48,581 nucleotides of DNA from Anaeromyxobacter soli (GTDB taxonomy: Bacteria; Myxococcota; Myxococcia; Myxococcales; Anaeromyxobacteraceae), in NCBI RefSeq assembly GCF_022808855.1, contig NZ_JAKZLF010000027.1, positions 28,424 through 77,004 of the forward strand. Direction: 5' to 3'. The notes under the pieces were generated by a model. It worked only from the letters and a program-made list of their open reading frames with translations. It made no database searches and was not told the origin of the DNA. Positions 16,563 through 29,606 of this stretch are shown here, piece after piece (the first letter of the stretch is position 1; every line of letters begins with the position of its first letter). Both the position numbers and the translations under genes were made by a program.

Positions 16563-16587
16563 GACGCGTTCACGGGTAGGGTATCAT
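16561..16587 (+). promoter_or_regulatory. Possible promoter for the FHA gene
   Basis: A TATCAT hexamer at 16582-16587 fits a -10 element, with ATGACG (16561-16566) 15 bases upstream as a poor -35. It lies between divergent starts and would leave a leader of about 35 bases before the TTG at 16628. Only weak support. Confidence 0.25.
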
Positions 16588-16627
16588 GGAAGCGGCGGGC
16601 CGGAAGTTCGGCGCCGGGGGAGCGGCC

Positions 16628-17560
16628 TTGTCCGAGATCGTCGTGATGAACGGGGTCTGCGCGGGGACCGTCTTCGTGCTCCCCGACATCCCGACCGTCC
16701 TCGGCCGCTCGCCCGAGTCGCACCTCCAGATCGGCGACCCCTGGATCTCGAGCATGCACGCCATGTTCGAGCGCCGCGGCGAGGAGGTCTGGGTGATCGA
16801 CCTCGAGAGCCGCAACGGCACCTTCGTCGGCGAGGAGCGCGTCGGCGAGGCGCGGCTCGACGACGGCGCGGTGGTCCGCTTCGGGCGCACCGAGATCCGC
16901 TTCACGGCGCGGGCCGGCCGGGGGGCGCCGGCGCGCACTCCGCGCGAGGAGCGCATCCGTCCCGACGCGCAGCGCGACACCATCCGCTCGGAGGGGACGA
17001 TCTCGGCTCGGGTGCTGGCGGCGCGCGAGCCCGTGGCCCACGAGCCCGCAGTCGACCCGCACACGCTCGCCGTGCGGCCGGTCGTCGTGCTCCGGATGTC
17101 GCTCCACGCCGTGCGCATCGCCTCCTCGCCCGACGTCGCGGGCCGGGTCCGCGCGGCCGTCGACGCCGCCGCGAGGGCGGCGCTGAACGAGGGCGCGATG
17201 GTCGGGAGGCTCGCGTCGGTCGGGGTGCTCGCGCTCTTCGGCGTGACCTCACCGCGGGCCGACGACGCCGCCCGCGCCGTGCAGGCGGCGCGCACCGCCC
17301 GCGGCGCGGTGCGCCGGCTCGGCGGCATCGACCTCCGCGCCGCCGTGGACGCGGGACCGCTGCTCGCCGGCAACGCCATGGGGCCGACCGGCGCGGACAT
17401 CGCGGCGCTCGGCGCGGCGGCGGACCGCTGCGAGCGGCTCGCCGCCCTGGCGCTACCCGGCGAGATCCTGCTCGGCCCGGGCGCGGCGGGAGCCGCCGGC
17501 GAGGGCGTGACGCAGCGCGAGCTCGACGGCGCCGCCGTCGAGGTCGTGCGGGACGATTGA
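16628..17560 (+). CDS. FHA domain protein with catalytically dead cyclase-like domain
   Basis: The product is about 310 residues. The N-terminal FHA domain is complete (LGRSPESHLQIG, SSMHA, RNGTFVG) and should bind phosphothreonine peptides. The C-terminal half has the outline of a class III nucleotide cyclase (ALFGVTSPRADDAARAVQAA, AVDAGPLLAGNAMG, AALGAAADRCERLAALALPG). The two metal-binding aspartates are missing: the first strand reads VVVLRMSLHAV and the usual GD is in VGRLASVGV. It is therefore probably a regulatory pseudo-cyclase. The TTG at 16628 is chosen for its strong GGGGGAG; an ATG at 16586 sits inside the putative promoter. It lies between a divergent Ser/Thr kinase and the Ehr regulator genes. 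Confidence 0.8.
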   Translation: MSEIVVMNGVCAGTVFVLPDIPTVLGRSPESHLQIGDPWISSMHAMFERRGEEVWVIDLESRNGTFVGEERVGEARLDDGAVVRFGRTEIRFTARAGRGAPARTPREERIRPDAQRDTIRSEGTISARVLAAREPVAHEPAVDPHTLAVRPVVVLRMSLHAVRIASSPDVAGRVRAAVDAAARAALNEGAMVGRLASVGVLALFGVTSPRADDAARAVQAARTARGAVRRLGGIDLRAAVDAGPLLAGNAMGPTGADIAALGAAADRCERLAALALPGEILLGPGAAGAAGEGVTQRELDGAAVEVVRDD

Positions 17561-17617: not shown

Positions 17618-17630
17618 TGCCGTTTCGGCA
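17618..17630. promoter_or_regulatory. 13-base near-palindrome upstream of regulator
   Basis: TGCCGTTTCGGCA lies 16 bases before the regulator ATG. Its exact reverse complement is at 19104-19116, at the 3' end of the same gene. An upstream ACTGCCG (17598-17604) also pairs with CGGCAGT (17626-17632). It is a candidate autoregulatory operator; function is inferred. Confidence 0.4.
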
Positions 17631-17646: not shown

Positions 17647-19119
17647 ATGCCAGAGCTCACTCGTCCCGGCGCCGGGAGCGCCTGTCTCGTCGTGGCGCCC
17701 GTGGGTGCGCCGGGGCTCGTGGACGTCCTCGCGCACGCCGGCTTCACGGTGGTCGCGGCGACGTCCGAGCGCGACGCGCTCGACGCGCTCGAGCAGACGC
17801 CGTTCGCGGCGGTGTACGTCTCCCAGTCCCTCGGCCTCCCGGCCCTCGCGCGCGTGGTCGCCGCCGGCGGGCAGCGGCTCGGCGAGGCGCCGATCATCGT
17901 GCTCGGCAGCTCCGGGACGGTCCAGGAGGCGGTCGACGCCATGCAGCTCGGGGCCACGGACTACGTCGCCCCGCCGTTCGACCCCGACGCCGTGCTCCGG
18001 CGCCTCGGCCGCGCGCTCGAGCGCTCCGTGCCGCCGCGCCGCGAGCCGTTCCCCGCCGGGCTCCTCGGCGTCGTGGGCACCTCTGCGGCGATGCGGCGGC
18101 TGCACGACTCCATCGACAAAATCTCGCGCTACAAGAGCAACGTCCTCCTCCTCGGCGAGAGCGGCACTGGCAAGGAGATCATCGCGCGGGCGCTCCACGA
18201 GCGCGGCCCGCGCCGCCAGCACCTCTTCGTCCCCGTGAACTGCGCCACGCTCGGGCGCGACATCCTCGAGAACGAGCTCTTCGGGCACGAGCGAGGGGCG
18301 TTCACCGGCGCGAACGAGCGCAAGAAGGGGCTGTTCGAGCTCGCCGACGGCGGCACCTTCTTCCTCGACGAGATCGCCGAGATGGATCTCTCGACGCAGG
18401 CGAAGCTCCTGCGCGTCCTGGAGCGCAGCGAGTTCCGGCGCGTCGGCGGCACCGCCAAGGTGAAGGTGGATCTCTCCATCATCGCGGCGACGAACCGCGA
18501 TCTCGAGGAGGCGATCGCCGCCGGCCGGTTCCGCGAGGACCTCTACTACCGCCTCAAGGTCGTGACGCTCGTGGTCCCGCCCCTGCGCGATCGGCGCGAG
18601 GACATCCCCCCGCTCGTGGACGCGTTCATCGCGGACTTCAACCGCCGCACGGGCGGGCGCATCGCGGGGGTCGACCCCGAGGCCCTCGAGTGGCTCGTCG
18701 GCTGCGACTGGCCGGGCAACGTCCGCGAGCTCCGGAACGCGGTCGAGGGCGCGTGCGTGCTCGCGCCCGGCGAGGTGGTGAAGCTCGCCGACCTGGCGGA
18801 GCGCGTCGAGCGCCGCGAGCGCCGCCCCGCGGCCCGCGCGCCCGCGCCCGCGCGCGCCGCCCCCGAGCCGGCCGCGGCCGTGCCGGGAGCCTCGACGGAC
18901 GGGGCAGCGCCGGGTGGCGCGCCGCTCCCCATCGGCGGCACCATCGTGATCCCCATCGGCTGCACGCTCGCCGAGGCCGAGCGCCGCATCGTCCTCGCGA
19001 ACCTCCGCCATTTCCGGACCCGCGCCCGCGCCGCGCGGGCGCTCGGCGTCGGCCTGCGCACGCTCTACACGAAGCTCGCCGCGTGGTCGAAAGACGGGGA
19101 GGATGCCGAAACGGCATGA
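17647..19119 (+). CDS. Sigma-54-dependent transcriptional activator with degenerate receiver
   Basis: The 490-residue product has three parts. Residues 10-125 have a CheY-like outline, ending GATDYVAPPF, but have no acidic pair after strand 1, no phospho-acceptor Asp in AAVYVSQSL, and Pro in place of the conserved Lys. The AAA+ domain (about 140-380) is intact: Walker A GESGTGKE (170-177), the sigma-54 contact loop GAFTGA (217-222), Walker B FFLDEI, and WPGNVRELRN. A Pro/Ala linker leads to a Fis-type HTH (about 450-485). It should remodel sigma-54 RNA polymerase, but control must come from something other than aspartate phosphorylation. AGAAGG precedes the ATG by eight bases. It probably controls the Ehr operon downstream. 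Confidence 0.93.
   Translation: MPELTRPGAGSACLVVAPVGAPGLVDVLAHAGFTVVAATSERDALDALEQTPFAAVYVSQSLGLPALARVVAAGGQRLGEAPIIVLGSSGTVQEAVDAMQLGATDYVAPPFDPDAVLRRLGRALERSVPPRREPFPAGLLGVVGTSAAMRRLHDSIDKISRYKSNVLLLGESGTGKEIIARALHERGPRRQHLFVPVNCATLGRDILENELFGHERGAFTGANERKKGLFELADGGTFFLDEIAEMDLSTQAKLLRVLERSEFRRVGGTAKVKVDLSIIAATNRDLEEAIAAGRFREDLYYRLKVVTLVVPPLRDRREDIPPLVDAFIADFNRRTGGRIAGVDPEALEWLVGCDWPGNVRELRNAVEGACVLAPGEVVKLADLAERVERRERRPAARAPAPARAAPEPAAAVPGASTDGAAPGGAPLPIGGTIVIPIGCTLAEAERRIVLANLRHFRTRARAARALGVGLRTLYTKLAAWSKDGEDAETA
19104..19116. promoter_or_regulatory. Inverted copy of the 13-base palindrome
   Basis: TGCCGAAACGGCA is the exact reverse complement of the site at 17618-17630. It sits across the last codons of the activator gene and the ATG of the next gene. 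It could be a second operator or chance within coding sequence. Confidence 0.3.
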
Positions 19120-19592
19120 TCCCTGGGCGGCCGCCCCGGAGATCCGCCCGGAACCGGGCGGATCTCGCGGAGATCGGGGCTGGCGCGCTTCCTGCTCTCG
19201 TCGGGGGCGTGTCCTCGAGAGCGCCGCCCTCCGTCCTCGTGCTCGCCCGTCCCGGGCCGGAGAGCGACGACCTGTTCGCCGACCTCTCGCAGCGGGAGGA
19301 CGTCTGCCTGCTGCGCGTCGCGACCGCGGCAGCGGCGAACGTGGCCATCGGGGAGCTCGCGGTCGCGCTCGTCATCGCGTGCCCGCAGATTCCGCCCCAC
19401 GCGATCGACTCGGTCCTCGCCCAGCTCGACGCGCTCCGCCCGGGGACGCCGGTGCTCGCCATCCGCACGCGCCAGGCGCAGGAGCCGGCCGCGTGGGGCG
19501 AGCGGGGCGTGGCGGTGCTGCGCCTGCCGCTCCTCGCCGGCGTCCTGTCGCGGGCGGTGGACGTCGTCCTCGGCATGACGGGCAAGCTCTAG
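19116..19592 (+). CDS. Receiver-like protein lacking phosphorylation residues
   Basis: The 158-residue product starts at an ATG overlapping the stop of the activator (ATGA, 19116-19119), so translation is coupled. From about 38 on it has a CheY-like alternation (SVLVLARPG, VALVIACPQIP, GTPVLAIRT, GVAVLRLPLL), but none of the conserved acidic pair, Asp or Lys is visible. I do not recognise a named family. It resembles the degenerate receiver of the activator just upstream, so it may have arisen from it or bind it. An internal GTG at 19208 would give a shorter protein starting at the receiver-like part. Confidence 0.7.
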   Translation: MIPGRPPRRSARNRADLAEIGAGALPALVGGVSSRAPPSVLVLARPGPESDDLFADLSQREDVCLLRVATAAAANVAIGELAVALVIACPQIPPHAIDSVLAQLDALRPGTPVLAIRTRQAQEPAAWGERGVAVLRLPLLAGVLSRAVDVVLGMTGKL

Positions 19593-19611: not shown

Positions 19612-20310
19612 ATGCAGCTCACGACGCGCGACGCTTCCCGCCTCCTCGGCGTCTCGGACTCGACGCTCCACCGCTGGCTCAAGAGCGGCGAGCTCCCCTC
19701 CACCCGCGTGAACGACCAGTACCGGCTGAACCGGATCGACCTCCTGGAGTTCGCCGCCGCGCGGAACCTGGCCATCTCCGCCGAGCTGCTCGCGGAGCTC
19801 GAGACGGAGGCGCCGGAGCTGCCGAGCCTCGCCGACGCGCTCCGGGCCGGCGGGGTCCACCGCGGCCTCTCCGGCACGGACAAGCCGGCCATCCTGCGGG
19901 AGGTCGTCGAGCGGCTGCCGCTCCCGCGCCCCGCCGATCGGGAGCTGCTCCACCGCGTCCTCCTGGCCCGCGAGGCGCTCGGCTCGACCGGCCTCGGCAA
20001 CGGCATCGCGATCCCGCACGCCCGGAACCCCATCGTCCTCCGCATCGCGCGGCCGGAGGTGGCGATCTGCTACCTCGACACGCCCGTCGAGTTCGGGGCC
20101 ATCGACGGCAAGCCCGTGCACACGCTCGTGACCCTCGTGACCCCGTCCACCCGCGTGCACCTGCACCTGCTCGCCGTCGTCGCCGCCGCGCTGCACGACC
20201 CCGCGGTGCTCGCGAGGCTCGAGGCGCGCGCCGGCGCCGAGGAGCTGCTCCCCGAGATCTCCCGGGTCGAGGCGGCCATCGCCGCGCAGCGCGCCGGGAG
20301 CGCCCGGTGA
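19612..20310 (+). CDS. Excisionase-type HTH fused to PTS EIIA-Ntr domain
   Basis: The product is 232 residues. Residues 1-55 are a MerR/excisionase-type DNA-binding helix-turn-helix (TTRDASRLLGVSDSTLHRWL, then EFAAARN). Residues about 70-225 are a PtsN-type EIIA domain with the phosphorylatable His 136 in GNGIAIPHARN. EIIA-Ntr receives phosphate from PtsO/NPr and regulates nitrogen, potassium and stress functions. Here the phospho-domain is joined to a DNA-binding domain, so it may act as a phosphate-controlled transcription factor for the operon. Its stop overlaps the GTG start of the first hydrogenase-like subunit (GTGA). GAGAAG lies just before its ATG. Confidence 0.9.
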   Translation: MQLTTRDASRLLGVSDSTLHRWLKSGELPSTRVNDQYRLNRIDLLEFAAARNLAISAELLAELETEAPELPSLADALRAGGVHRGLSGTDKPAILREVVERLPLPRPADRELLHRVLLAREALGSTGLGNGIAIPHARNPIVLRIARPEVAICYLDTPVEFGAIDGKPVHTLVTLVTPSTRVHLHLLAVVAAALHDPAVLARLEARAGAEELLPEISRVEAAIAAQRAGSAR

Positions 20311-22313
20311 GCCTCTTCCTCGCCGCGCTCGTCGTCCTCGTGGCGGGTGGCGCCGCCGCGCTCGCCGCCTCCGCTCGCCCCACCGCCGCGCTCGCCATCG
20401 GCAGCGCGAGCGCCGCCGCGGGCTCCGCGATGGGGCTCCTCGCCGCCTTCCCCGCGCTCCGCGCGCCTCCGTCCGCCTGGGAGCTCGCCTGGGCGGTGCC
20501 GAACGGCGCGATCGCGCTCGGGCTCGATCCGCTCTCCGCGGTCTTCGCCGTCGCGGTGTTCGCGCTCGGCCTCGCCGCGGCCGTGTTCGGGGCGGGCTAC
20601 ATGCGCGCCCACCTCGCGCGGCGCTCGCTCGGCGCGTTCCTGTTCTTCTTCAACGTCCTCCTCGCCTCGATGGCGGTGCTCGTGGCCGCCCGCCAGGCGC
20701 TCCTGTTCATCGTCGCGTGGGAGACGATGACCGTCTCGTCGTTCCTGCTCGTCGGCCTCGAGCACGAGGCGGGGGCGGTGCGGATGGCGACGCGGACGTA
20801 CCTCGTCGCGTCCCACCTCGGGGCCGCGTTCCTCTTCGGGCTGTTCCTCACGCTCGGTCACGCCGCCGGGTCGCTGAGGTTCGAGGCGTTCGAGGCCCTG
20901 CGCGCCGGCTCCGCGGTCCCGGCGACGCTGCTGTTCGTCTTCGCCCTCGTGGGCTTCGGCACCAAGGCCGGCCTCGTCCCGCTCCACGTGTGGCTGCCGG
21001 AGGCCCACCCGGCGGCGCCGAGCCACGTCTCCGCGCTCATGTCGGGCGTCCTCGTGAAGATGGGCGTCTACGGCATCCTGCGGGTGCTCACCTTCCTGCC
21101 TCCGGCGCCCGTCTCCCACGGCCTCGCGCTCGCCGCGGTCGGGCTGCTCGGCGCGGTCGCCGCGCTGCTCCTCGCCCTCGGGCAGCGCGACCTGAAGCGC
21201 ATCCTGGCCTACTCCACGGTCGAGAACGTCGGGATCATCGCGTTGGGCCTCGGCGTGGGCCTCGTCGGCGCGGCGGGCCGGGCCCCCGCGGTCGCCGCGC
21301 TCGGGGTCGCCGGCGCGCTCCTCCACGTCTGGAACCACGCCCTGATGAAGGGGCTCGCCTTCATGGGCGCCGGCGCGGTGGTGCACGGCGCGGGCACCCG
21401 CGACGTGGAGCGGATGGGCGGCCTCCTCCGGCGCCTCCCGGTGAGCGCGGGGCTGCTCGTGTTCGCGGCCGTCGCGCTCGCGGCGCTCCCGCCGCTCAAC
21501 GGCTTCGTCTCCGAGTGGCTGCTCTACCTGGGCCTCCTCGACGGCGGGCAGGGCTCTGCCGCCGGGACCGCCCTGCTCGCCTACCTGTCCCTCGCCGTGC
21601 TCGCGCTCGTCGGCGCGCTCGCTGCCATCGTGTTCACCCGGCTCGTCGGGGCGGCGCTGCTCGGCAGCCCGCGCAGCCCCGAGGCGGCGTCCGCCCACGA
21701 GGGCGGCCCGCTGCTCCTCGCGCCCCTCGCCGCCCTCGCCGCAGCGAACGCCGCCGTGGCGCTCTTCCCCGGCCAGGCGGTCGCGCTCCTCACCCCGGCG
21801 GCCGCGATCGTGCTCCGCGTCCCCGCGGCGGAGCTCGCGGCGAGGCTCGCCCCCGCGCTCTCCGCGCTCGCCGGGCCGCTCCGCGCGGGGCTCGCGCTCC
21901 TCCTCCTCTGTGGCGTCGCGCTCGCCCTCGCCTCGCGGCGGATGCTCGCCCGGCGCGACGTGCGCGCCGCCCAGACCTGGGGCTGCGGCTTCTCCGCCGA
22001 GAGCGCGCGCGTGCAGTACACAGCCGCCTCGCTCTCCGAGCTCGCGCTCGCGGCGATCGCGCCGCGCGCGCTCCGCCCCGTCGAGACCCCGGCGCGGCCG
22101 GAGGGCCTCTTCCCCCGCCGCGTCCGCTACGCCCAGGAGGCGGACGACCCCGCCCGCGCGCGCGTGTTCGAGCCGGCGTTCCGCGCGGTGGGCGAGTGGT
22201 TCGGGCGGCTGCGGCACTTCCAGCAGTCGCGGCTCAACCTGCAGCTCCTCTACACGGTCCTCACCGTCCTCGCCCTCTCGGCGCTCCTCCTCTTCCACCA
22301 GCGCGGCCCATGA
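20307..22313 (+). CDS. hyfB: Hydrogenase-4/complex I-like antiporter subunit (HyfB type, copy 1)
   Basis: The product is a 668-residue polytopic membrane protein of the NuoL/Mrp antiporter family. Ion-channel residues are kept: the Glu in VAWETMTVSSFL, Lys in GTKAGLVPLHVWLPEAH, Lys in SGVLVKMGVYGILR, and Lys in ALMKGLAFMGAG. The C-terminal TWGCGFSAESARVQYTA segment identifies the HyfB/HycC branch. It should translocate H+ or Na+ in the membrane arm of the Ehr complex. The GTG start overlaps the EIIA stop and its own stop overlaps the next ATG. The next gene is a paralogue of similar length. Confidence 0.92.
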   Translation: MSLFLAALVVLVAGGAAALAASARPTAALAIGSASAAAGSAMGLLAAFPALRAPPSAWELAWAVPNGAIALGLDPLSAVFAVAVFALGLAAAVFGAGYMRAHLARRSLGAFLFFFNVLLASMAVLVAARQALLFIVAWETMTVSSFLLVGLEHEAGAVRMATRTYLVASHLGAAFLFGLFLTLGHAAGSLRFEAFEALRAGSAVPATLLFVFALVGFGTKAGLVPLHVWLPEAHPAAPSHVSALMSGVLVKMGVYGILRVLTFLPPAPVSHGLALAAVGLLGAVAALLLALGQRDLKRILAYSTVENVGIIALGLGVGLVGAAGRAPAVAALGVAGALLHVWNHALMKGLAFMGAGAVVHGAGTRDVERMGGLLRRLPVSAGLLVFAAVALAALPPLNGFVSEWLLYLGLLDGGQGSAAGTALLAYLSLAVLALVGALAAIVFTRLVGAALLGSPRSPEAASAHEGGPLLLAPLAALAAANAAVALFPGQAVALLTPAAAIVLRVPAAELAARLAPALSALAGPLRAGLALLLLCGVALALASRRMLARRDVRAAQTWGCGFSAESARVQYTAASLSELALAAIAPRALRPVETPARPEGLFPRRVRYAQEADDPARARVFEPAFRAVGEWFGRLRHFQQSRLNLQLLYTVLTVLALSALLLFHQRGP

Positions 22314-24274
22314 CGCTCGTCCCCGTCCTCGGCGCCATCGCCCTCCCCGCCGCGAGCGGGCTCGCCGCGGCCGCGCTGCGCGCGCGGCCGGCCGCGGGCC
22401 AGGCCCTCGCGTGCGCCGCGCTGTGCGCGGGGGCGGCCCTCGGCGTCGCGGCGGCGGGGACGGTGCTCCTCGGCGGGGAGCTCTCGGCGCCGGCGCTCGG
22501 GCTGCGCCTCGACGCGCTCTCGGCGATCTTCCTCTTGCCCATCTGCGCGGTCTCGGCGCTCGGGGCGGTGTACGGGCTCGGCTACTACCCGCAGGCCGAG
22601 CACGGCCCGCGCGCCGTGCGGCTGCAGCTCTTCTACGGGCTCGCCACGGGCGGGATGGTCCTCCTCGTCGTGGCGGGGCACGCCGTCGTGTTCCTCGTCG
22701 GCTGGGAGGTGATGGCGCTCTCCGGCTTCCTCCTCGTCCACACGGACCACGAGCGCGCGGAGGTGCAGCGCGCGGCGCTCGTGTACCTCGCGGCCACGCA
22801 CGTCGGGACGCTCGCGCTCTTCGCGCTCTTCGCCCTCCTGCGGCAGGCGGCGGGGTCGTTCGACTTCGCGGCGATGCAGGGGCTGCCCGGTGCGGGCCGG
22901 CTCGCGGCGAGCGCCTTCGCGCTCGCGCTCCTCGGCTTCGGCGTGAAGGCCGGCCTCATGCCGCTCCACTTCTGGCTGCCGGGCGCGCACGCGGCGGCGC
23001 CGTCGCACGTCTCGGCGGTGATGTCCGGGGTGCTCATCAAGACCGGCATCTACGGGCTCCTGCGCGTGACGGGGCTCTTCGCCGCGCCGCCCGCGACGTG
23101 GGGGACGGCGCTCCTCCTGCTCGGCGGCGCCTCCGCCGTGCTGGGGGTCGCGTTCGCCCTCGCGCAGCACGATCTCAAGCGGCTCCTCGCGTACCACAGC
23201 GTCGAGAACATCGGGATCATCGCCCTCGGCACCGGGCTCGCGCTGCTCGGCCGGTCGCGCGGCGAGCCCGGCCTCGTGGTGCTCGGGCTCGGGGGCGCGA
23301 CGCTCCACGTCGTGAACCACGCGCTGTTCAAGTCGCTCCTCTTCCTCGGCGCCGGCGCGGTCCAGCACGCGACGGGCACGCGCGAGCTCGACCTCCTCGG
23401 CGGGCTCGCGCGCCCGATGCGCGCGACCGCGGTGCTCTTCCTCGTCGGCGCGGCGGCGATCAGCGGGCTCCCGCCGCTCAACGGGTTCGTCTCGGAGTGG
23501 CTCGTCTACATGGGCTTCCTCTCCGCCCTGGAGCGCGGCGGGGGCGACCTCCTCGCCTTCGCGGCGCTGGGCGTGCCGGCGCTGGCGCTGGTCGGCGGGC
23601 TCGCCGCGGCGTGCTTCGTCAAGGTGGTGGGGGTGGTGTTCCTCGGCACCCCGCGCAGCGCGCACCCGCGCGCCGCGCACGAGGCGCCGCGGACGATGCT
23701 CGTGCCGATGGCGATCCTCGCCGCGGCCTGCGCCGCGATCGGCCTCGCCCCGGCCGCCGCGCTCCCGGCGCTGGTCCGCGCGGCGGCGGCCTGGTCGCGG
23801 CTCCCGCCCGAGCTCCTCGACGGCGCGGCGGCGCGCGCGGGCGCGGGCGCCTCGCGGGTGAGCGTCGCCGCGGCCGCGCTCCTCGTCGCGACGGCAGGCC
23901 TGGTCCTCCTCCGCCGTCGCCTCGGGGCGCCGCGCGCCCCCGACGTCGAGACCTGGGGCTGCGCCTTCTCTGGCCCGCTCCCGCGCGCGCAGTACACCGG
24001 CTCGTCCTTCGCCGAGCTGCTCGTCCGCCGCTTCTCGTGGGCGATCTTCCCGCGCGGCGCCGCGCCGCGCCTCGGCGGGGCGTTCCCGGCCCGCGCCGCG
24101 TTCCACACCGAGGTGCCGGACACGGTCCTCGATCTCGCGCTCGCCCCCGCCGCGCGCGGCTTCCGGTGGCTCGCCGCGCGGGCCCACCTCCTCTTCCTGC
24201 GCCGCATCCAGTTCCAGGTGCTGCTCGTCCTCGCGACGCTGCTCGCGATCCTCGCCTGGGGATTCGGCTGGTGA
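22310..24274 (+). CDS. hyfB: Hydrogenase-4/complex I-like antiporter subunit (HyfB type, copy 2)
   Basis: The product is 654 residues, paralogous to the preceding subunit along its whole length. It keeps the Glu in VGWEVMALSGFL, Lys in GVKAGLMPLHFWLPGAH, Lys in GVLIKTGIYGLLR, and Lys in ALFKSLLFLGAG. It also has the HyfB-type tail TWGCAFSGPLPRAQYTGSSF. In hydrogenase-4 the second antiporter subunit is HyfD, which lacks this tail; here a second HyfB-type protein occupies that place. Starts at ATG overlapping the previous stop, and ends overlapping the GTG of the HyfC gene. It is likely a second ion channel of the complex. Confidence 0.91.
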   Translation: MTLVPVLGAIALPAASGLAAAALRARPAAGQALACAALCAGAALGVAAAGTVLLGGELSAPALGLRLDALSAIFLLPICAVSALGAVYGLGYYPQAEHGPRAVRLQLFYGLATGGMVLLVVAGHAVVFLVGWEVMALSGFLLVHTDHERAEVQRAALVYLAATHVGTLALFALFALLRQAAGSFDFAAMQGLPGAGRLAASAFALALLGFGVKAGLMPLHFWLPGAHAAAPSHVSAVMSGVLIKTGIYGLLRVTGLFAAPPATWGTALLLLGGASAVLGVAFALAQHDLKRLLAYHSVENIGIIALGTGLALLGRSRGEPGLVVLGLGGATLHVVNHALFKSLLFLGAGAVQHATGTRELDLLGGLARPMRATAVLFLVGAAAISGLPPLNGFVSEWLVYMGFLSALERGGGDLLAFAALGVPALALVGGLAAACFVKVVGVVFLGTPRSAHPRAAHEAPRTMLVPMAILAAACAAIGLAPAAALPALVRAAAAWSRLPPELLDGAAARAGAGASRVSVAAAALLVATAGLVLLRRRLGAPRAPDVETWGCAFSGPLPRAQYTGSSFAELLVRRFSWAIFPRGAAPRLGGAFPARAAFHTEVPDTVLDLALAPAARGFRWLAARAHLLFLRRIQFQVLLVLATLLAILAWGFGW

Positions 24275-25194
24275 ACACGCCCATGCTCCTCCTGCGCACC
24301 GTGCTGCACCTCGCCGCGCTCCTCGCGCTGCCCCCTCTCCTCCTCGGCGTCGTGAACCGCACGAAGTCGATCTTCGCGGGGCGCGTCGGACCTCCGCTGC
24401 TGCAGCCCTACCTCGATCTCGCGAAGCTCCTGCGCAAGGGCGCGGTCTACAGCCGGACCACGACCTGGGTGTTCCGCGCGGGCCCGATCGTCGGGCTCGC
24501 CGCCGTGGCGTCGGCCGGGCTCCTCCTCTCGATGGGCGGCGCGCCCGCGGCGCTCTCCTTCGCGGGGGACTTCGTCCTGTTCGCGTACCTGCTCGGCCTC
24601 GCGCGCTTCGCGACCGCCCTCGCGGCGCTCGACACCGGCTCCGCGTTCGAGGGGATGGGCGCCGCGCGCGAGGTCACGTTCGCGAGCCTCGCCGAGCCGG
24701 CCCTCTTCCTGTGCCTGCTCGTGCTGGCGCGCGCGACGGGCACCCTCTCGCTCTCCGGCATGCTCGGCCCGGCGCTCCCGGGGGCGTGGGGCTCCGCCGG
24801 CCCGGCGCTGCTCCTCGCCGCCATCGCGGTGTTCGTCATCGCCCTCGCCGAGAACTCGCGCATCCCGGTGGACGACCCGAACACGCACCTCGAGCTCACG
24901 ATGATCCACGAGGTGATGGTGCTCGACCACGGCGGGCCCGACCTCGCCTTCATCCTGTACGGCGCGTCCCTGAAGCTCTTCCTCTTCGGGGCGATCCTCT
25001 CCCGCCTCGTCCTCGGCCGCGGCGACGGCGCGCTCGCCTCGGAGGCGCTGTTCTTCCTGGGCGTCCTCTGCTTCGCGGTGGGCGTCGGCGTCGTCGAGTC
25101 CGTGATGGCGCGGCTGCGCATCGTGCGCGTCCCGCAGCTCCTCGTGGGCGCGTCGGTCCTCTCCGTGTTCGCGCTCGTCCTCCTCCTCCGGTGA
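24271..25194 (+). CDS. hyfC: Hydrogenase-4/complex I-like subunit HyfC (NuoH family)
   Basis: This is a 307-residue polytopic protein of the NuoH/HycD family that joins the peripheral arm to the membrane arm and forms the quinone-site-like entry channel. Conserved signatures are GRVGPPLLQPYLDLAKLLRK near the N-terminus, an EGMGAARE loop, and ENSRIPVDDPNTHLELTMIH. The GTG at 24271 overlaps the previous stop (GTGA); an ATG at 24283 is a possible shorter start. The length and motifs are normal for the family. Confidence 0.92.
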   Translation: MNTPMLLLRTVLHLAALLALPPLLLGVVNRTKSIFAGRVGPPLLQPYLDLAKLLRKGAVYSRTTTWVFRAGPIVGLAAVASAGLLLSMGGAPAALSFAGDFVLFAYLLGLARFATALAALDTGSAFEGMGAAREVTFASLAEPALFLCLLVLARATGTLSLSGMLGPALPGAWGSAGPALLLAAIAVFVIALAENSRIPVDDPNTHLELTMIHEVMVLDHGGPDLAFILYGASLKLFLFGAILSRLVLGRGDGALASEALFFLGVLCFAVGVGVVESVMARLRIVRVPQLLVGASVLSVFALVLLLR

Positions 25195-25199
25195 CCGCG

Positions 25200-25847
25200 A
25201 TGGCCTCGTTCGTCGATCTCGTCTTCGTCCTGGTCGTCGTCATCGACCTGTTCCTGCTCGCCTCGAGCCGCCTCGGCGCCGCGATCCGCACCGTCGCGAT
25301 CCAGGGCGCGCTCCTCGCGGCGCTCCCGCTCCTCCTCGTCCGCGAGTCTCACAACCTCGGCCACGCGGTCCTCCTCGCCGGCGGCGCGCTCGCCATCAAG
25401 GGGTTCTTCATCCCCTGGCTGATGTTCCGGGCGATCCGCGAGGCGTCGATCCGCCGCGAGATGGAGCCCGTCATCGGCTTCGTCCCCTCGATGGTGCTCG
25501 GCGCGGTGGGCGTCGCGCTCGCCTTCGCGTTCTCGAGCCGGCTGCCGCTCCCCGACGCCGGCGCCCACGGCTTCCTCGTGCCGACCGCGCTCTCCACGGT
25601 CTGGACCGGGCTCCTCCTCGTCGTCACCCGCAAGAAGGCGGTGAGCCAGGTGCTCGGGTTCCTCGTCCTCGAGAACGGGGTCTACGTCTTCGGGCTGCTG
25701 CTCTCCGACGTCATGCCGGTCATGGTCGAGGCGGGCGTCCTCCTCGACCTCTTCGCGGCGGTGTTCGTGATGGGCATCGTCATGTTCCACATCAACCGCG
25801 AGTTCTCCTCGCTCGACACCGAGAAGCTCTCGGCGCTGAAGGATTAG
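25200..25847 (+). CDS. hyfE: Hydrogenase-4 subunit HyfE
   Basis: The 215-residue membrane protein has about six to seven hydrophobic segments and is similar to HyfE, a NuoK-related subunit. The C-terminal part LGFLVLENGVYVFGLLL is the NuoK-like core, with a Glu in the membrane helix; a second Glu lies in MVEAGVLLDLF. The ATG at 25200 has GGTGA five bases upstream. A GTG at 25191 overlaps the previous stop in the same GTGA pattern used by its neighbours, so it is a real alternative. It is predicted to lie between HyfC and the antiporter subunits. Confidence 0.9.
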   Translation: MASFVDLVFVLVVVIDLFLLASSRLGAAIRTVAIQGALLAALPLLLVRESHNLGHAVLLAGGALAIKGFFIPWLMFRAIREASIRREMEPVIGFVPSMVLGAVGVALAFAFSSRLPLPDAGAHGFLVPTALSTVWTGLLLVVTRKKAVSQVLGFLVLENGVYVFGLLLSDVMPVMVEAGVLLDLFAAVFVMGIVMFHINREFSSLDTEKLSALKD

Positions 25848-25855
25848 GGCGCGCC

Positions 25856-27289
25856 ATGCTCTTCGTCATCCTCGCCCCGCTCGCGCTCGCGCCCGTCGCG
25901 CTCCTCGTCCCCTCGAACCGCCGCCGGCCGCTGGTGCTCCTCGCGGGCGCGCTCCTTCACGCCGCCGGGGTGGCCGCCCTGTTCGCCTCGCCGCCGCCCG
26001 CCCGCGCCGGCGCGTGGCTCGCCTTCGACCCCATGGCGAAGGTGACGCTCCTCACGGTGACCGCCCTCTTCCTCGCCGCCGCCATCTACGCGCAGGGCTA
26101 CCTCGCCCGGCGTGCCGACCGCGACAACCGGATCTTCGTGGGCGGTCTCCTGCTCCTCCTCGCCGCGATGACCGTCGTCGCGCTCTCGCACCACCTCGGC
26201 CTCTCGTGGGTCGCCATCGAGGCGACCACGCTGGCGAGCGCGCCGCTCATCTACTTCAACCACAACGCGCGCTCGCTCGAGGCGACCTGGAAGTACCTCC
26301 TCATCTGCTCGCTCGGCATCGCGCTCGCGCTGCTCGGCACGTTCTTCCTCGCGCTGTCCGGCGCCGGGGCCGGGGGACCCCGCTCGCTCCTCCTCGACGA
26401 CCTCATCGCCGCGGGGCCGTCCCTGTCGCGGCCGTGGGTGCGCGCGGCCTTCGTCCTGCTCCTCGTCGGCTACGGGACGAAGATGGGCCTCGCGCCCCTC
26501 CACTCCTGGAAGCCCGACGCCTACGGCGAGGCGCCCGGGCTCCTCGGCGCCCTCCTCGCCGGCGGCCTCACGAACTTCGCGTTCCTCTCCATCGCCCGCG
26601 TCTTCCAGGTGACCCGCGCCGCGGGCGACGAGGCGTTCGCGCGCGACGCCCTCGTCGGCCTCGGCCTGCTCTCCATCGCGCTCGCCGCCGTGTTCGTCGT
26701 GGGGCAGCGCGACTTCAAGCGGATGCTCGCGTACTCGAGCGTCGAGCACATGGGCATCCTCGCCCTCGGCATCGGCCTCGGCGGCGGCGCGGCGGGCGGC
26801 GCGTTCTTCCACTCGATGAACAACGGCCTCACGAAGGGCGTCCTGTTCCTCTCTGCCGGCAACATCCACCGCGCGTTCGGGGCGAAGACCACCGACGAGG
26901 TCCGCGGCGCCGCGCGCCGGCTCCCGGTGTCGGGGCCGCTCTTCCTCGCCGGGTTCCTCGCCATCACCGGCTCGCCGCCCTTCTCCCCGTTCTTCAGCGA
27001 GTTCGCCATCCTGAACGGCGCCTTCGGGGCCGGCCGCTTCGTGGTCGGCGGGCTCTTCCTCGCGCTCCTCGCGGTCATCTTCATCGGCATGGCGACCACC
27101 GTCCTCGCGGTGGTGCAGGGCGACCCGGGGGATGCGCCGCGGGTGCCCGGGACGGACGACAGCTGGCTCACCGCCGCCCCGCCCTTCGCCCTCATGGTGC
27201 TCGTCCTCCTGCTCGGGCTCTTCCTGCCCCAGGGGCTCAGGGATCTCTTCGGTGCCGCGGCGCAGCTCGTCGGCGGCCGCTGGGACTGA
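25856..27289 (+). CDS. hyfF: Hydrogenase-4 antiporter-like subunit HyfF
   Basis: The product is 477 residues, a third antiporter-like membrane subunit, of the HyfF/NuoN branch. Channel residues are present: Glu in VAIEATTLASAPL, Lys in GYGTKMGLAPLHSWKPDAY, Lys in NNGLTKGVLFLSAGN, and the loop SVEHMGILALGIG. It starts nine bases after hyfE. With the two HyfB-type proteins the complex would have three antiporter-like channels plus the HyfC/E path, close to the pumping capacity of complex I. The ion (H+ or Na+) cannot be read from the sequence. Confidence 0.92.
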   Translation: MLFVILAPLALAPVALLVPSNRRRPLVLLAGALLHAAGVAALFASPPPARAGAWLAFDPMAKVTLLTVTALFLAAAIYAQGYLARRADRDNRIFVGGLLLLLAAMTVVALSHHLGLSWVAIEATTLASAPLIYFNHNARSLEATWKYLLICSLGIALALLGTFFLALSGAGAGGPRSLLLDDLIAAGPSLSRPWVRAAFVLLLVGYGTKMGLAPLHSWKPDAYGEAPGLLGALLAGGLTNFAFLSIARVFQVTRAAGDEAFARDALVGLGLLSIALAAVFVVGQRDFKRMLAYSSVEHMGILALGIGLGGGAAGGAFFHSMNNGLTKGVLFLSAGNIHRAFGAKTTDEVRGAARRLPVSGPLFLAGFLAITGSPPFSPFFSEFAILNGAFGAGRFVVGGLFLALLAVIFIGMATTVLAVVQGDPGDAPRVPGTDDSWLTAAPPFALMVLVLLLGLFLPQGLRDLFGAAAQLVGGRWD

Positions 27290-27291
27290 AC

Positions 27292-28839
27292 ATGACCGGA
27301 CCCATTCACGACGTCCGCCCCCGCGCGAGCGACCTCCTCGAGACCTGGAACGGCGAGGCGGTGGACGCCCGCGCCGTGCCCGTGCACCCCGTCTCGCGCT
27401 TCCGCGCGATCGTCCTCGAGGCCCTCGCGGGCGGCGGCCGGCTCGCCGCCCTCTTCGGGCGCCCCGCCGAGGGCCGCGTGCTCCTGACGGCCGTGCTCGC
27501 CGACGATCCCGAGGGTCGGCTCGCGCTCCTCTCCACGCTGGTCGACGGCGCCTACCCGGCGCTCTCGGCCGAGGTCCCCGCTGCGCAGGGGTTCGAGCGC
27601 GAGCTCGCGGAGCAGTACGGCGTCCGCCCCGAGGGGCACCCCTGGCTGAAGCCGCTCAGGTTCGAGCCGCCGCTGCGCCCGGTGCGCGACGCGTTCGGCC
27701 GGCGCGATCCTCGCGCGACGATCCCGGGCGAGTACCCGTTCTTCGCCGTGGAGGGCGAGGAGGTGCACGAGGTCGCGGTCGGCCCGGTGCACGCCGGGAT
27801 CATCGAGCCCGGGCACTTCCGCTTCCAGTGCCACGGCGAGCAGGTGTTCCACCTCGAGATCGTGCTCGGCTACCAGCACCGCGGCGTCGAGCCGCTGCTC
27901 CAGGGCGGCCCCGACCGCCGCTCCCTCGCGCTCGCCGAGTCGATCGCCGGCGACACCTCGGTCGGCCACGGGCTCGCGTACGTCAAGGCGCTCGAGTCGC
28001 TCGCCGGGCGGCCCCCGCCCGCCCGGGCGATGGCGCTCCGCGGCGTGGCCCTCGAGCTCGAGCGGCTCGCGAACCACGTGGGCGATCTCGGCGCGCTCGC
28101 GGGGGACGTCGGCTTCCTCCCGACGGCCTCGTACTGCGGCGCGCTGCGGGCCGAGTTCCTGAACGCGACCGCGGAGCTCTGCGGGAACCGCTTCGGTCGC
28201 GGCCTGCTCGTCCCGGGCGGCGTGCGCCACGACCTCGGCGCCGCGGAGGCGCAGGCGATCGCCGCGCGGGTGCGCGGGGCCTGGGAGAAGTCGCGCCGCG
28301 CGGCCGGGCTCTTCTTCGAGTCGCCCTCGGTGCGCGCCCGGCTCGAGGGCACCGGCGCGGTGTCGCGCGAGACGGCCCTGGCCCTCGGGCTCGTGGGGCC
28401 GGCGGCGCGGGCGAGCGGCGTGGACCGCGACGTGCGGCGCGACCACGCGTTCGGCATCTTCCGGTTCGTCCACGTCCCGGTGGTCACCGCGGACACCGGG
28501 GACGTGTTCGCGCGCGCCTGGATCCGGCTCCTCGAGGGCGAGCGGAGCGCGGCGTTCGTCGCGAGCCAGCTCGAGAACCTCCCCGAGGGCGGCGCGCGCG
28601 ATCCGCTCGGCCCGCTCGCGCCCGGGTCGCTGGTGGTCTCGATGGTGGAGGGCTGGCGCGGCGAGATCGCGCACGTCGCCGTGACGGACGAGGCCGGACG
28701 CCTCGCCCGCTACAAGGTGAAGGACCCCTCGTTCCACAACTGGTTCGGGCTCGCGATGGCGCTCCGGGACGGACAGATCTCGGACTTCCCGCTCTGCAAC
28801 AAGAGCTTCAACCTCTCCTACGCGGGGCACGACCTGTGA
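27292..28839 (+). CDS. hyfG: Ehr-type large subunit: NuoC-NuoD/HycE-like, lacking NiFe ligands
   Basis: The product is 515 residues. The first ~130 are NuoC-like (AAQGFERELAEQYGVRPEGH), the rest NuoD/HycE-like (HFRFQCHGEQVFHLEIVLGY, RGVEPLLQG). In NiFe hydrogenases the L1 motif RxCGxC holds nickel; here the same place reads ESIAGDTSVGHGLAY (about 217-230), with no Cys. The C-terminal DPCxxC is also absent; the protein ends FPLCNKSFNLSYAGHDL with one Cys at 502. There is no C-terminal extension beyond that site for maturation cleavage. It therefore cannot assemble a NiFe centre as in known enzymes. This matches the energy-converting hydrogenase-related (Ehr) group, between complex I and group 4 hydrogenases. 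Substrate unknown. Confidence 0.9.
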   Translation: MTGPIHDVRPRASDLLETWNGEAVDARAVPVHPVSRFRAIVLEALAGGGRLAALFGRPAEGRVLLTAVLADDPEGRLALLSTLVDGAYPALSAEVPAAQGFERELAEQYGVRPEGHPWLKPLRFEPPLRPVRDAFGRRDPRATIPGEYPFFAVEGEEVHEVAVGPVHAGIIEPGHFRFQCHGEQVFHLEIVLGYQHRGVEPLLQGGPDRRSLALAESIAGDTSVGHGLAYVKALESLAGRPPPARAMALRGVALELERLANHVGDLGALAGDVGFLPTASYCGALRAEFLNATAELCGNRFGRGLLVPGGVRHDLGAAEAQAIAARVRGAWEKSRRAAGLFFESPSVRARLEGTGAVSRETALALGLVGPAARASGVDRDVRRDHAFGIFRFVHVPVVTADTGDVFARAWIRLLEGERSAAFVASQLENLPEGGARDPLGPLAPGSLVVSMVEGWRGEIAHVAVTDEAGRLARYKVKDPSFHNWFGLAMALRDGQISDFPLCNKSFNLSYAGHDL

Positions 28840-29606
28840 TCGACATCCTCAAGTTCAGGCTCGGCTACGGCCGCCAGACGGTCGCGTTCCCGGACGGCCC
28901 GCCGAAGTTCCCGGCGCGGTTCCGGGGGCGCCCCGCCGTCGATCCGTCCCGCTGCACCGACGGGTGCACCGCGTGCGCGGAGATCTGCCCGACCGAGGCG
29001 ATCCTCGCGCCGGGGACGGCGTCGATGGCGGTGGACCTCGGCCGGTGCGTCTTCTGCGGCGACTGCGCCGCGGCTTGCCCGCCCGGGGCGATCCGCTTCA
29101 CGGACGACCACCGGCTCGCCGCGCGCGCGCGCGAGGCGCTCGTCGTCCGCGGCGACGAGCCCGTGCTCGCGGCGGCGCTCGACGGCGAGATGCGCCGCGT
29201 CCTCGGCCGCTCGCTCAAGCTCCGGCAGGTGTCGGCCGCGGGCTGCAACGGCTGCGAGGCCGAGCTCAACGCGACCGGCAACATCCAGTTCGACCTGGGC
29301 CGCTTCGGCGTGCAGTTCGTCGCCTCGCCCCGCCACGCCGACGGGATCGTCGTGACCGGCCCGGTCTCCGAGAACATGCTGCTCGCGCTCCGGAAGACCT
29401 ACGAGGCGGTCCCCGCCCCGCGGCTCGTCATCGCGGTCGGCGCCTGCGCCATCTCGGGCGGCGTGTTCCGGGAGAGCCCCGTGGTGAGCGGCGGCGCCGA
29501 GGCGGCGCTCGCTGGGATCCCGGTGGACCTCTTCGTCCCCGGCTGCCCGCCCCACCCGATCACGATCGTGGACGGGCTCCTGCGGCTCTTGGGGCGGCTG
29601 GGGTGA
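28836..29606 (+). CDS. hyfI: Ferredoxin-NuoB fusion subunit (HyfH-HyfI type)
   Basis: The product is 256 residues that combine two usually separate subunits. Residues about 38-85 bind two [4Fe-4S] clusters: Cys 40, 44, 47, 51 (C-x3-C-x2-C-x3-CP, one residue longer than usual at the first gap) and Cys 71, 74, 77, 81 (regular CxxCxxCxxxCP). Residues about 125-255 are the NuoB/HycG-like small subunit with Cys 137, 140, 204 and 237 for the proximal cluster (AAGCNGCEAEL, GACAISGG, PGCPPHP). It forms an electron wire in the peripheral arm. The GTG start overlaps the large-subunit stop (GTGA). It is the last gene of the operon, and no hydrogenase maturation genes follow. Confidence 0.91.
   Translation: MIDILKFRLGYGRQTVAFPDGPPKFPARFRGRPAVDPSRCTDGCTACAEICPTEAILAPGTASMAVDLGRCVFCGDCAAACPPGAIRFTDDHRLAARAREALVVRGDEPVLAAALDGEMRRVLGRSLKLRQVSAAGCNGCEAELNATGNIQFDLGRFGVQFVASPRHADGIVVTGPVSENMLLALRKTYEAVPAPRLVIAVGACAISGGVFRESPVVSGGAEAALAGIPVDLFVPGCPPHPITIVDGLLRLLGRLG

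Follow-up and report, generated by a model that had tools for sequence, protein, structure and literature searches.

A helix–turn–helix–EIIA fusion encoded beside Ehr operons in many unrelated bacteria suggests phosphotransferase control of a complex I-like ion pump

Introduction

Energy-converting hydrogenase-related (Ehr) complexes, of which GSU0739-0745 of Geobacter sulfurreducens is an example, have to our knowledge no established function. Control of transcription by the phosphotransferase system (PTS), on the other side, is familiar from the MtlR/LicR/LevR-type activators, which are DNA-binding proteins with one or several PTS-phosphorylated domains. This trait is predicted for the fusion protein analysed here as well, which differs from these activators in having no PRD, EIIB or AAA domain, in carrying a small HTH_17 domain, and in having an ion-pump operon as its putative target. 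Class II EBPs also count among the PTS-regulated transcription activators (PMC3162934). With EIIA-Ntr (PtsN; structures 1a6j, 3urr and 4gqx) the fusion shares the EIIA fold, the phosphohistidine motif and the partner histidine; it differs from it by an added N-terminal helix–turn–helix (HTH), by scores under the equivalog cut-offs and by linkage to Ehr genes instead of rpoN. The closest described domain arrangement is that of Chlamydia ptsN_2 (Cpn0061), for which we know of no Ehr link. This protein is annotated as a PTS IIA protein with an HTH DNA-binding domain (PMC5723314) and is the same domain pair, the likeness being one of annotation only.

The bare HTH plus EIIA pair is therefore already known from the Chlamydia annotation (PMC5723314), and PtsN and Ehr are known too. 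A link of an HTH-EIIA protein, or of the PTS, to Ehr was not reported in the part of the open literature covered by our search, and a 2026 review of PTS-Ntr (PMC13104625) mentions neither hydrogenase, fusion, DNA-binding nor helix-turn-helix. If such a link is true, PTS control would reach beyond sugar, nitrogen and potassium into complex I-like energy conservation, and a conserved regulator devoted to Ehr, with PTS phosphorylation as its readable input, would help to find out when and why the Ehr pump is used by cells.

Results and discussion

The window analysed here is a stretch of 48,581 nucleotides from Anaeromyxobacter soli; coordinates are those of the window, and all genes, domains and promoter elements given below lie on its forward (+) strand. 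The fusion gene (19612..20310) starts with ATG, stops with TGA at 20308-20310 and encodes 232 amino acids. Residues 3-51 (19618..19764) match HTH_17, an excisionase/BldC/MerR-like DNA-binding domain, with an E-value of 1.1e-12 that exceeds the Pfam cut-off, and the excisionase-type HTH exceeds its NCBIfam cut-off too. Residues 82-216 (19855..20259) form a PTS EIIA type 2 (Ntr-like) domain (PTS_EIIA_2, PF00359; E 2.6e-21, 76.5 bits against a gathering cut-off of 27), so that an earlier note on this DNA was right to propose an excisionase-type HTH joined to an EIIA-Ntr domain. The match to the PtsN family (nitro_reg_IIA in NCBIfam, 1.3e-20) lies under the equivalog cut-off, the scores being 73.7 of the 138.7 bits required for TIGR01419 and 67.8 of 221 bits for NF008145, and the fusion does not have the status of a PtsN equivalog. 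It is a real gene and no chance open reading frame, because dN/dS among congeners is 0.1-0.4 in the HTH and EIIA domains alike, indicating purifying selection, and because homologues occur in several phyla.

Within the EIIA domain, His136 (codon 20017..20019), the predicted phosphorylation site, sits in the motif GIAIPHARN and is thus intact, as the earlier note had read it. Conservation of this histidine in our first homologue set was set aside since one of the search patterns itself contained GNGIAIPH, and it was retested on sets found by profile and not selected by motif. In these sets His136 and His183, which are predicted to be the phosphorylatable active-site histidine and the second conserved histidine of EIIA type 2 domains, are invariant (24/24 Myxococcota and 31/31 Desulfobacterota-type fusions), while residue 130, in the same motif as His136, varies. 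An AlphaFold2 model of the fusion built from 18 homologues has a mean pLDDT of 91, and its EIIA part matches the PtsN structures 1a6j, 3urr, 4gqx and 2a0j. The HTH modelled alone (pLDDT 81) matches SoxR-DNA, RacA-DNA and BldC-DNA complexes and phage Xis, with Foldseek E-values that are weak (0.006-0.04), though the hits are all of one kind; several BldC chains can be superposed on it at about 1.4 A, and a sequence profile search finds RacA (6.4e-5) and BldC (0.009). The domain is thus an HTH_17 with a wing and has a predicted fold like that of DNA-bound members of the MerR/BldC/Xis-like group. Because of this likeness to RacA, BldC, SoxR and Xis in both sequence profile and predicted fold, DNA binding by the fusion is likely.

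The stop codon of the fusion gene overlaps the GTG start of the first hydrogenase-like gene, hyfB, at 20307 by four nucleotides (GTGA, 20307..20310), as had been noticed before, and the same overlap recurs in at least 12 loci, which suggests that the two genes are translationally coupled. The operon continues with genes for two HyfB-like antiporter-like subunits (20307..22313 and 22310..24274), a HyfC/NuoH-like subunit (24289..25194) and a HyfE-like subunit (25194..25847), the starts of these last two being approximate, a HyfF-like antiporter-like subunit (25856..27289), a HyfG-like (NuoC/D) large subunit (27289..28839), and a HyfH/I-like protein in which a 2x[4Fe-4S] ferredoxin is fused to a NuoB-like small subunit (28836..29606). 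The fused ferredoxin/NuoB-like protein retains 12 cysteines. The HyfG-like subunit has only four cysteines in all and no CxxC, hence none of the NiFe ligand motifs, and for this reason we call the operon Ehr and not a hydrogenase operon: it combines a group-4-hydrogenase-like large subunit devoid of NiFe ligand cysteines with antiporter-like subunits. This gene set fits the Ehr complexes as described (PMC6349859, PMC7894505), which in Geobacter proteomics rise on formate (PMC7894505). The likeness to GSU0739-0745 lies in the subunit set and in the loss of the NiFe ligands, and the difference is that an HTH-EIIA regulator is not part of the accessible published descriptions of Ehr complexes.

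Linkage of the fusion to Ehr was measured by searching the same 195 Myxococcota genomes with a profile built from 18 fusions and with the Ehr large subunit. A full-length fusion is present in 23/195 genomes (E 1.3e-54 or better), the other matches listed being PtsN-like except for one divergent fusion in a genome that we call G102. The Ehr large subunit is present in 46/195 genomes, which include G102 and all 23 fusion genomes; accordingly, the fusion is found in 0/149 Ehr-free versus 23/46 Ehr-bearing genomes (Fisher p 1.8e-17, uncorrected for relatedness). In 22 of the 23 genomes hyfB lies directly 3' of the fusion, the remaining fusion being at a contig end. Conversely, 23 of the 46 Ehr-bearing genomes have no fusion (22 if the divergent fusion of G102 is included), and the fusion is thus not essential for Ehr. 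The 297 Geobacter-phylum genomes searched include 43 with a full-length fusion, 61 with the Ehr large subunit and 32 with both (p 4e-17, uncorrected); 31 of the 33 fusions in these 32 genomes are no more than 10 kb away from the large subunit gene, the other two being on different contigs, and an Ehr gene lies at most 1.5 kb from the fusion in 29 of 30 loci examined, the remaining one being at a contig end. Eleven fusion genomes of this phylum have no detected Ehr large subunit; most of them score lower, and most may belong to other clades. A pattern scan of genome contigs also found fusions that neighbour Ehr genes in Geobacter, Desulfuromonas, Desulfobacteraceae, Gemmatimonadaceae, Phycisphaerales, Omnitrophota, Goldiibacteriota and Spirochaetales. 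Failure of the fusion to be conserved beside such operons had been named in the earlier note as one outcome that would speak against it; the search found the opposite in Myxococcota, in the Geobacter phylum and in further phyla.

The arrangement of the linked genes is not constant. In Geobacter-phylum loci the fusion can be codirectional with Ehr genes, convergent, beside hyfG or between Ehr genes, and some fusions are divergent from the operon, a placement typical of regulators. Geobacter sp. AOG1 has two Ehr operons, each with its own fusion, the second of which is divergent (L202 9080-17870). That the linkage persists through rearrangement speaks for a functional connection between the fusion and Ehr, and the presence of the fusion beside Ehr in many unrelated bacteria suggests that the PEP-driven phosphorylation state of the cell may control the Ehr pump. 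It is conceivable that the linkage is instead one inherited ancestral gene order and that the fusion has its role elsewhere, for instance as a second EIIA-Ntr of general function, and indeed the Ehr-linked fusions form one clade, so that the statistics above partly reflect shared ancestry. We nevertheless hold this explanation to be very doubtful, as orientation and immediate neighbour change while the linkage is kept, a second clade is independently linked to Ehr in G102, no Ehr-free Myxococcota genome retains the fusion, and both the HTH and the EIIA domain are under purifying selection.

In the tree, the Ehr-linked clade comprises 35 rows, 34 of them Ehr-linked, with support 97/91. Its sole non-Ehr member, on a Planctomycetota contig (L011 8001-8672), shows no Ehr gene in its 8-kb flanks. 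The sister clade consists of L019 and L021-L023. Three of its fusions adjoin CLC chloride channels with CBS domains (L022 5163-10430, L021 8001-10377 and L023 7983-10398), and the one in L022, from Desulfospira, adjoins trkA-trkH as well. A third HTH-EIIA group, made up of L025, L026, L030 and the G102 fusion, stands on a weakly supported branch (93/56). In L026 (877-3844) the genes after the fusion encode another EIIA, a CBS-like protein and a CitMHS/ArsB-type transporter. The G102 fusion is divergent beside its Ehr operon and is an independent association of fusion and Ehr, with the reservation that its branch is weakly supported (93/56).

CorC/RCK-type docking domains are known from PtsN targets. 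The main rival to a transcriptional role is a docking role, in which the unphosphorylated EIIA domain binds the antiporter-like subunits of Ehr and gates ion transport, the HTH serving autoregulation or some other function. In Escherichia coli, PtsN in its unphosphorylated form binds to the K+/H+ antiporter YcgO and inhibits it (PMC11808508); the sister clade adjoins CLC channels and TrkA/TrkH; the recurrent 4-nt overlap is with the gene of an antiporter-like subunit; and the variable orientation relative to Ehr could mean that co-presence alone matters. The position in the operon and the translational coupling fit a protein partner as much as a transcription factor. A docking role leaves the conserved DNA-binding-type HTH found in every Ehr-linked member in need of a separate reason, and we regard this role as unlikely, while giving it serious weight. 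A broader and slightly more doubtful proposal would combine the two functions: the HTH-EIIA family would have diverged into clades that each serve a single ion-translocating machine (Ehr for one, CLC/Trk for another), and would couple the PTS state both to transcription and, via docking of unphosphorylated EIIA, to activity, Ehr being tuned by PEP/pyruvate.

Phosphoryl donors, with a complete EI-HPr set, are encoded in the genome. One cluster contains HPr kinase, mannose-family EIIA/B/C/D, HPr and EI, a second EI is encoded elsewhere, and a canonical EIIA (PtsN), separate from the fusion, is encoded near rpoN. Among the 24 Myxococcota fusion genomes, HPr is found in 24 and EI in 23. The earlier note had assigned the fusion to the nitrogen phosphotransferase chain, and here it has to be amended: neither of the two EIs found in the genome (599 and 583 aa) shows a GAF domain, for which reason a PtsP-type (EI-Ntr) chain is not evident, and the gene for HPr shares its cluster with a mannose-type permease.

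The explanation that we favour, and consider rather probable, is that the fusion is a DNA-binding regulator responsive to PTS phosphorylation, with an affinity that depends on the phosphorylation of His136 and with Ehr as its main target. The N-terminal HTH would bind DNA at or near Ehr promoters, His136 of the EIIA domain would receive a phosphoryl group from HPr, and the PEP/pyruvate state of the cell would in this way alter DNA binding by the fusion and hence transcription of Ehr, the fusion being co-produced with Ehr, often via translational coupling. We infer this role, that is DNA binding, phosphorylation, the target site and the direction of the effect, from features that were found directly by computation, namely the two domains, the intact histidine, the conserved linkage and the PTS donors.

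Upstream of the fusion lies a gene for an NtrC-like sigma-54 activator (17647..19119; Sigma54_activat 3e-67, and homologue alignment), with an intact GAFTGA motif and a degenerate, Asp-less receiver that does not qualify as phosphorylatable: it scores 24.8 bits against Response_reg, under the cut-off of 30.2, and in the homologues whose N-terminus was read, the acidic pocket is absent by inspection. A palindrome is present 5' of this gene (TGCCGTTTCGGCA, 17618..17630) and again at its 3' end, upstream of the Ehr part of the locus (TGCCGAAACGGCA, 19104..19116). The form TGCCGNNNCGGCA occurs at 17618 and 19104, with 0.22 occurrences expected in the window, and TGCCGWWWCGGCA has exactly two copies in the 5.3-Mb genome, both flanking the activator gene. 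The palindrome is present at 8/8 examined loci with a close activator homologue, three of which are Ehr loci without fusion, and absent from 14/14 Ehr loci without such a homologue. A sigma-54-like -24/-12 element (TGGCGCGCTTCCTGCT, 19181..19196), a candidate promoter by consensus match only, is conserved in six Anaeromyxobacter loci, and similar elements lie in four divergent intergenic regions. The palindrome tracks the activator and not the fusion, and the clearest promoter signal of the locus therefore belongs to the activator; together, the palindrome and the sigma-54-like element resemble the operator–promoter pair of an activator dedicated to Ehr, at fusion-free Ehr operons as well. We had considered the palindrome as a site for the HTH-EIIA protein and rejected it, since it is missing from fusion operons without activator and is found next to the activator in operons that have no fusion.

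It counts against the regulator reading that the only conserved operator at the Ehr operon is that of the activator and is kept where the fusion is absent. No operator tracking the fusion was found, either by inspection or by a search for exact dyads shared by the regions 5' of the fusion in other operons. A TTGACA-type promoter is enriched upstream of fusion operons without activator (13 observed versus 3.6 expected from mononucleotide shuffles), and the sigma-70-like promoters seen have spacers of 16-17 bp, in a scan that admitted only 16-18 bp, the MerR-type spacer being 19 bp. If the fusion is nevertheless a DNA-binding regulator, in A. soli it would act alongside a sigma-54 activator that has a palindromic site of its own.

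Between the activator and the fusion is encoded RECx (19209..19592, start uncertain), a small receiver-like protein with no Pfam match, a homologue of which adjoins the activator in L006, L155, L156, L164 and L168. The EIIA domain could pass the PTS state on to the activator, via its Asp-less receiver, or to RECx, in place of a histidine kinase input. Such a relay would suit an activator that by inspection has no phosphoacceptor pocket, yet appears to control the same operon via the palindrome, and in several loci fusion and activator are next to each other. However, the activator is missing from many fusion operons and the fusion from several activator operons, so that neither needs the other, and we judge the relay to be very unlikely. 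Further upstream, 5' of the activator, is the gene of an FHA-domain protein (16586..17560), and a related gene recurs upstream of Ehr operons of this family, with and without fusion (L159, L160 and L167). Finally, in two genomes (L164 1328-17915 of G033 and L165 1235-17636 of G034) a sigma-54 activator gene lies between two back-to-back Ehr-like operons, with no HTH-EIIA fusion.
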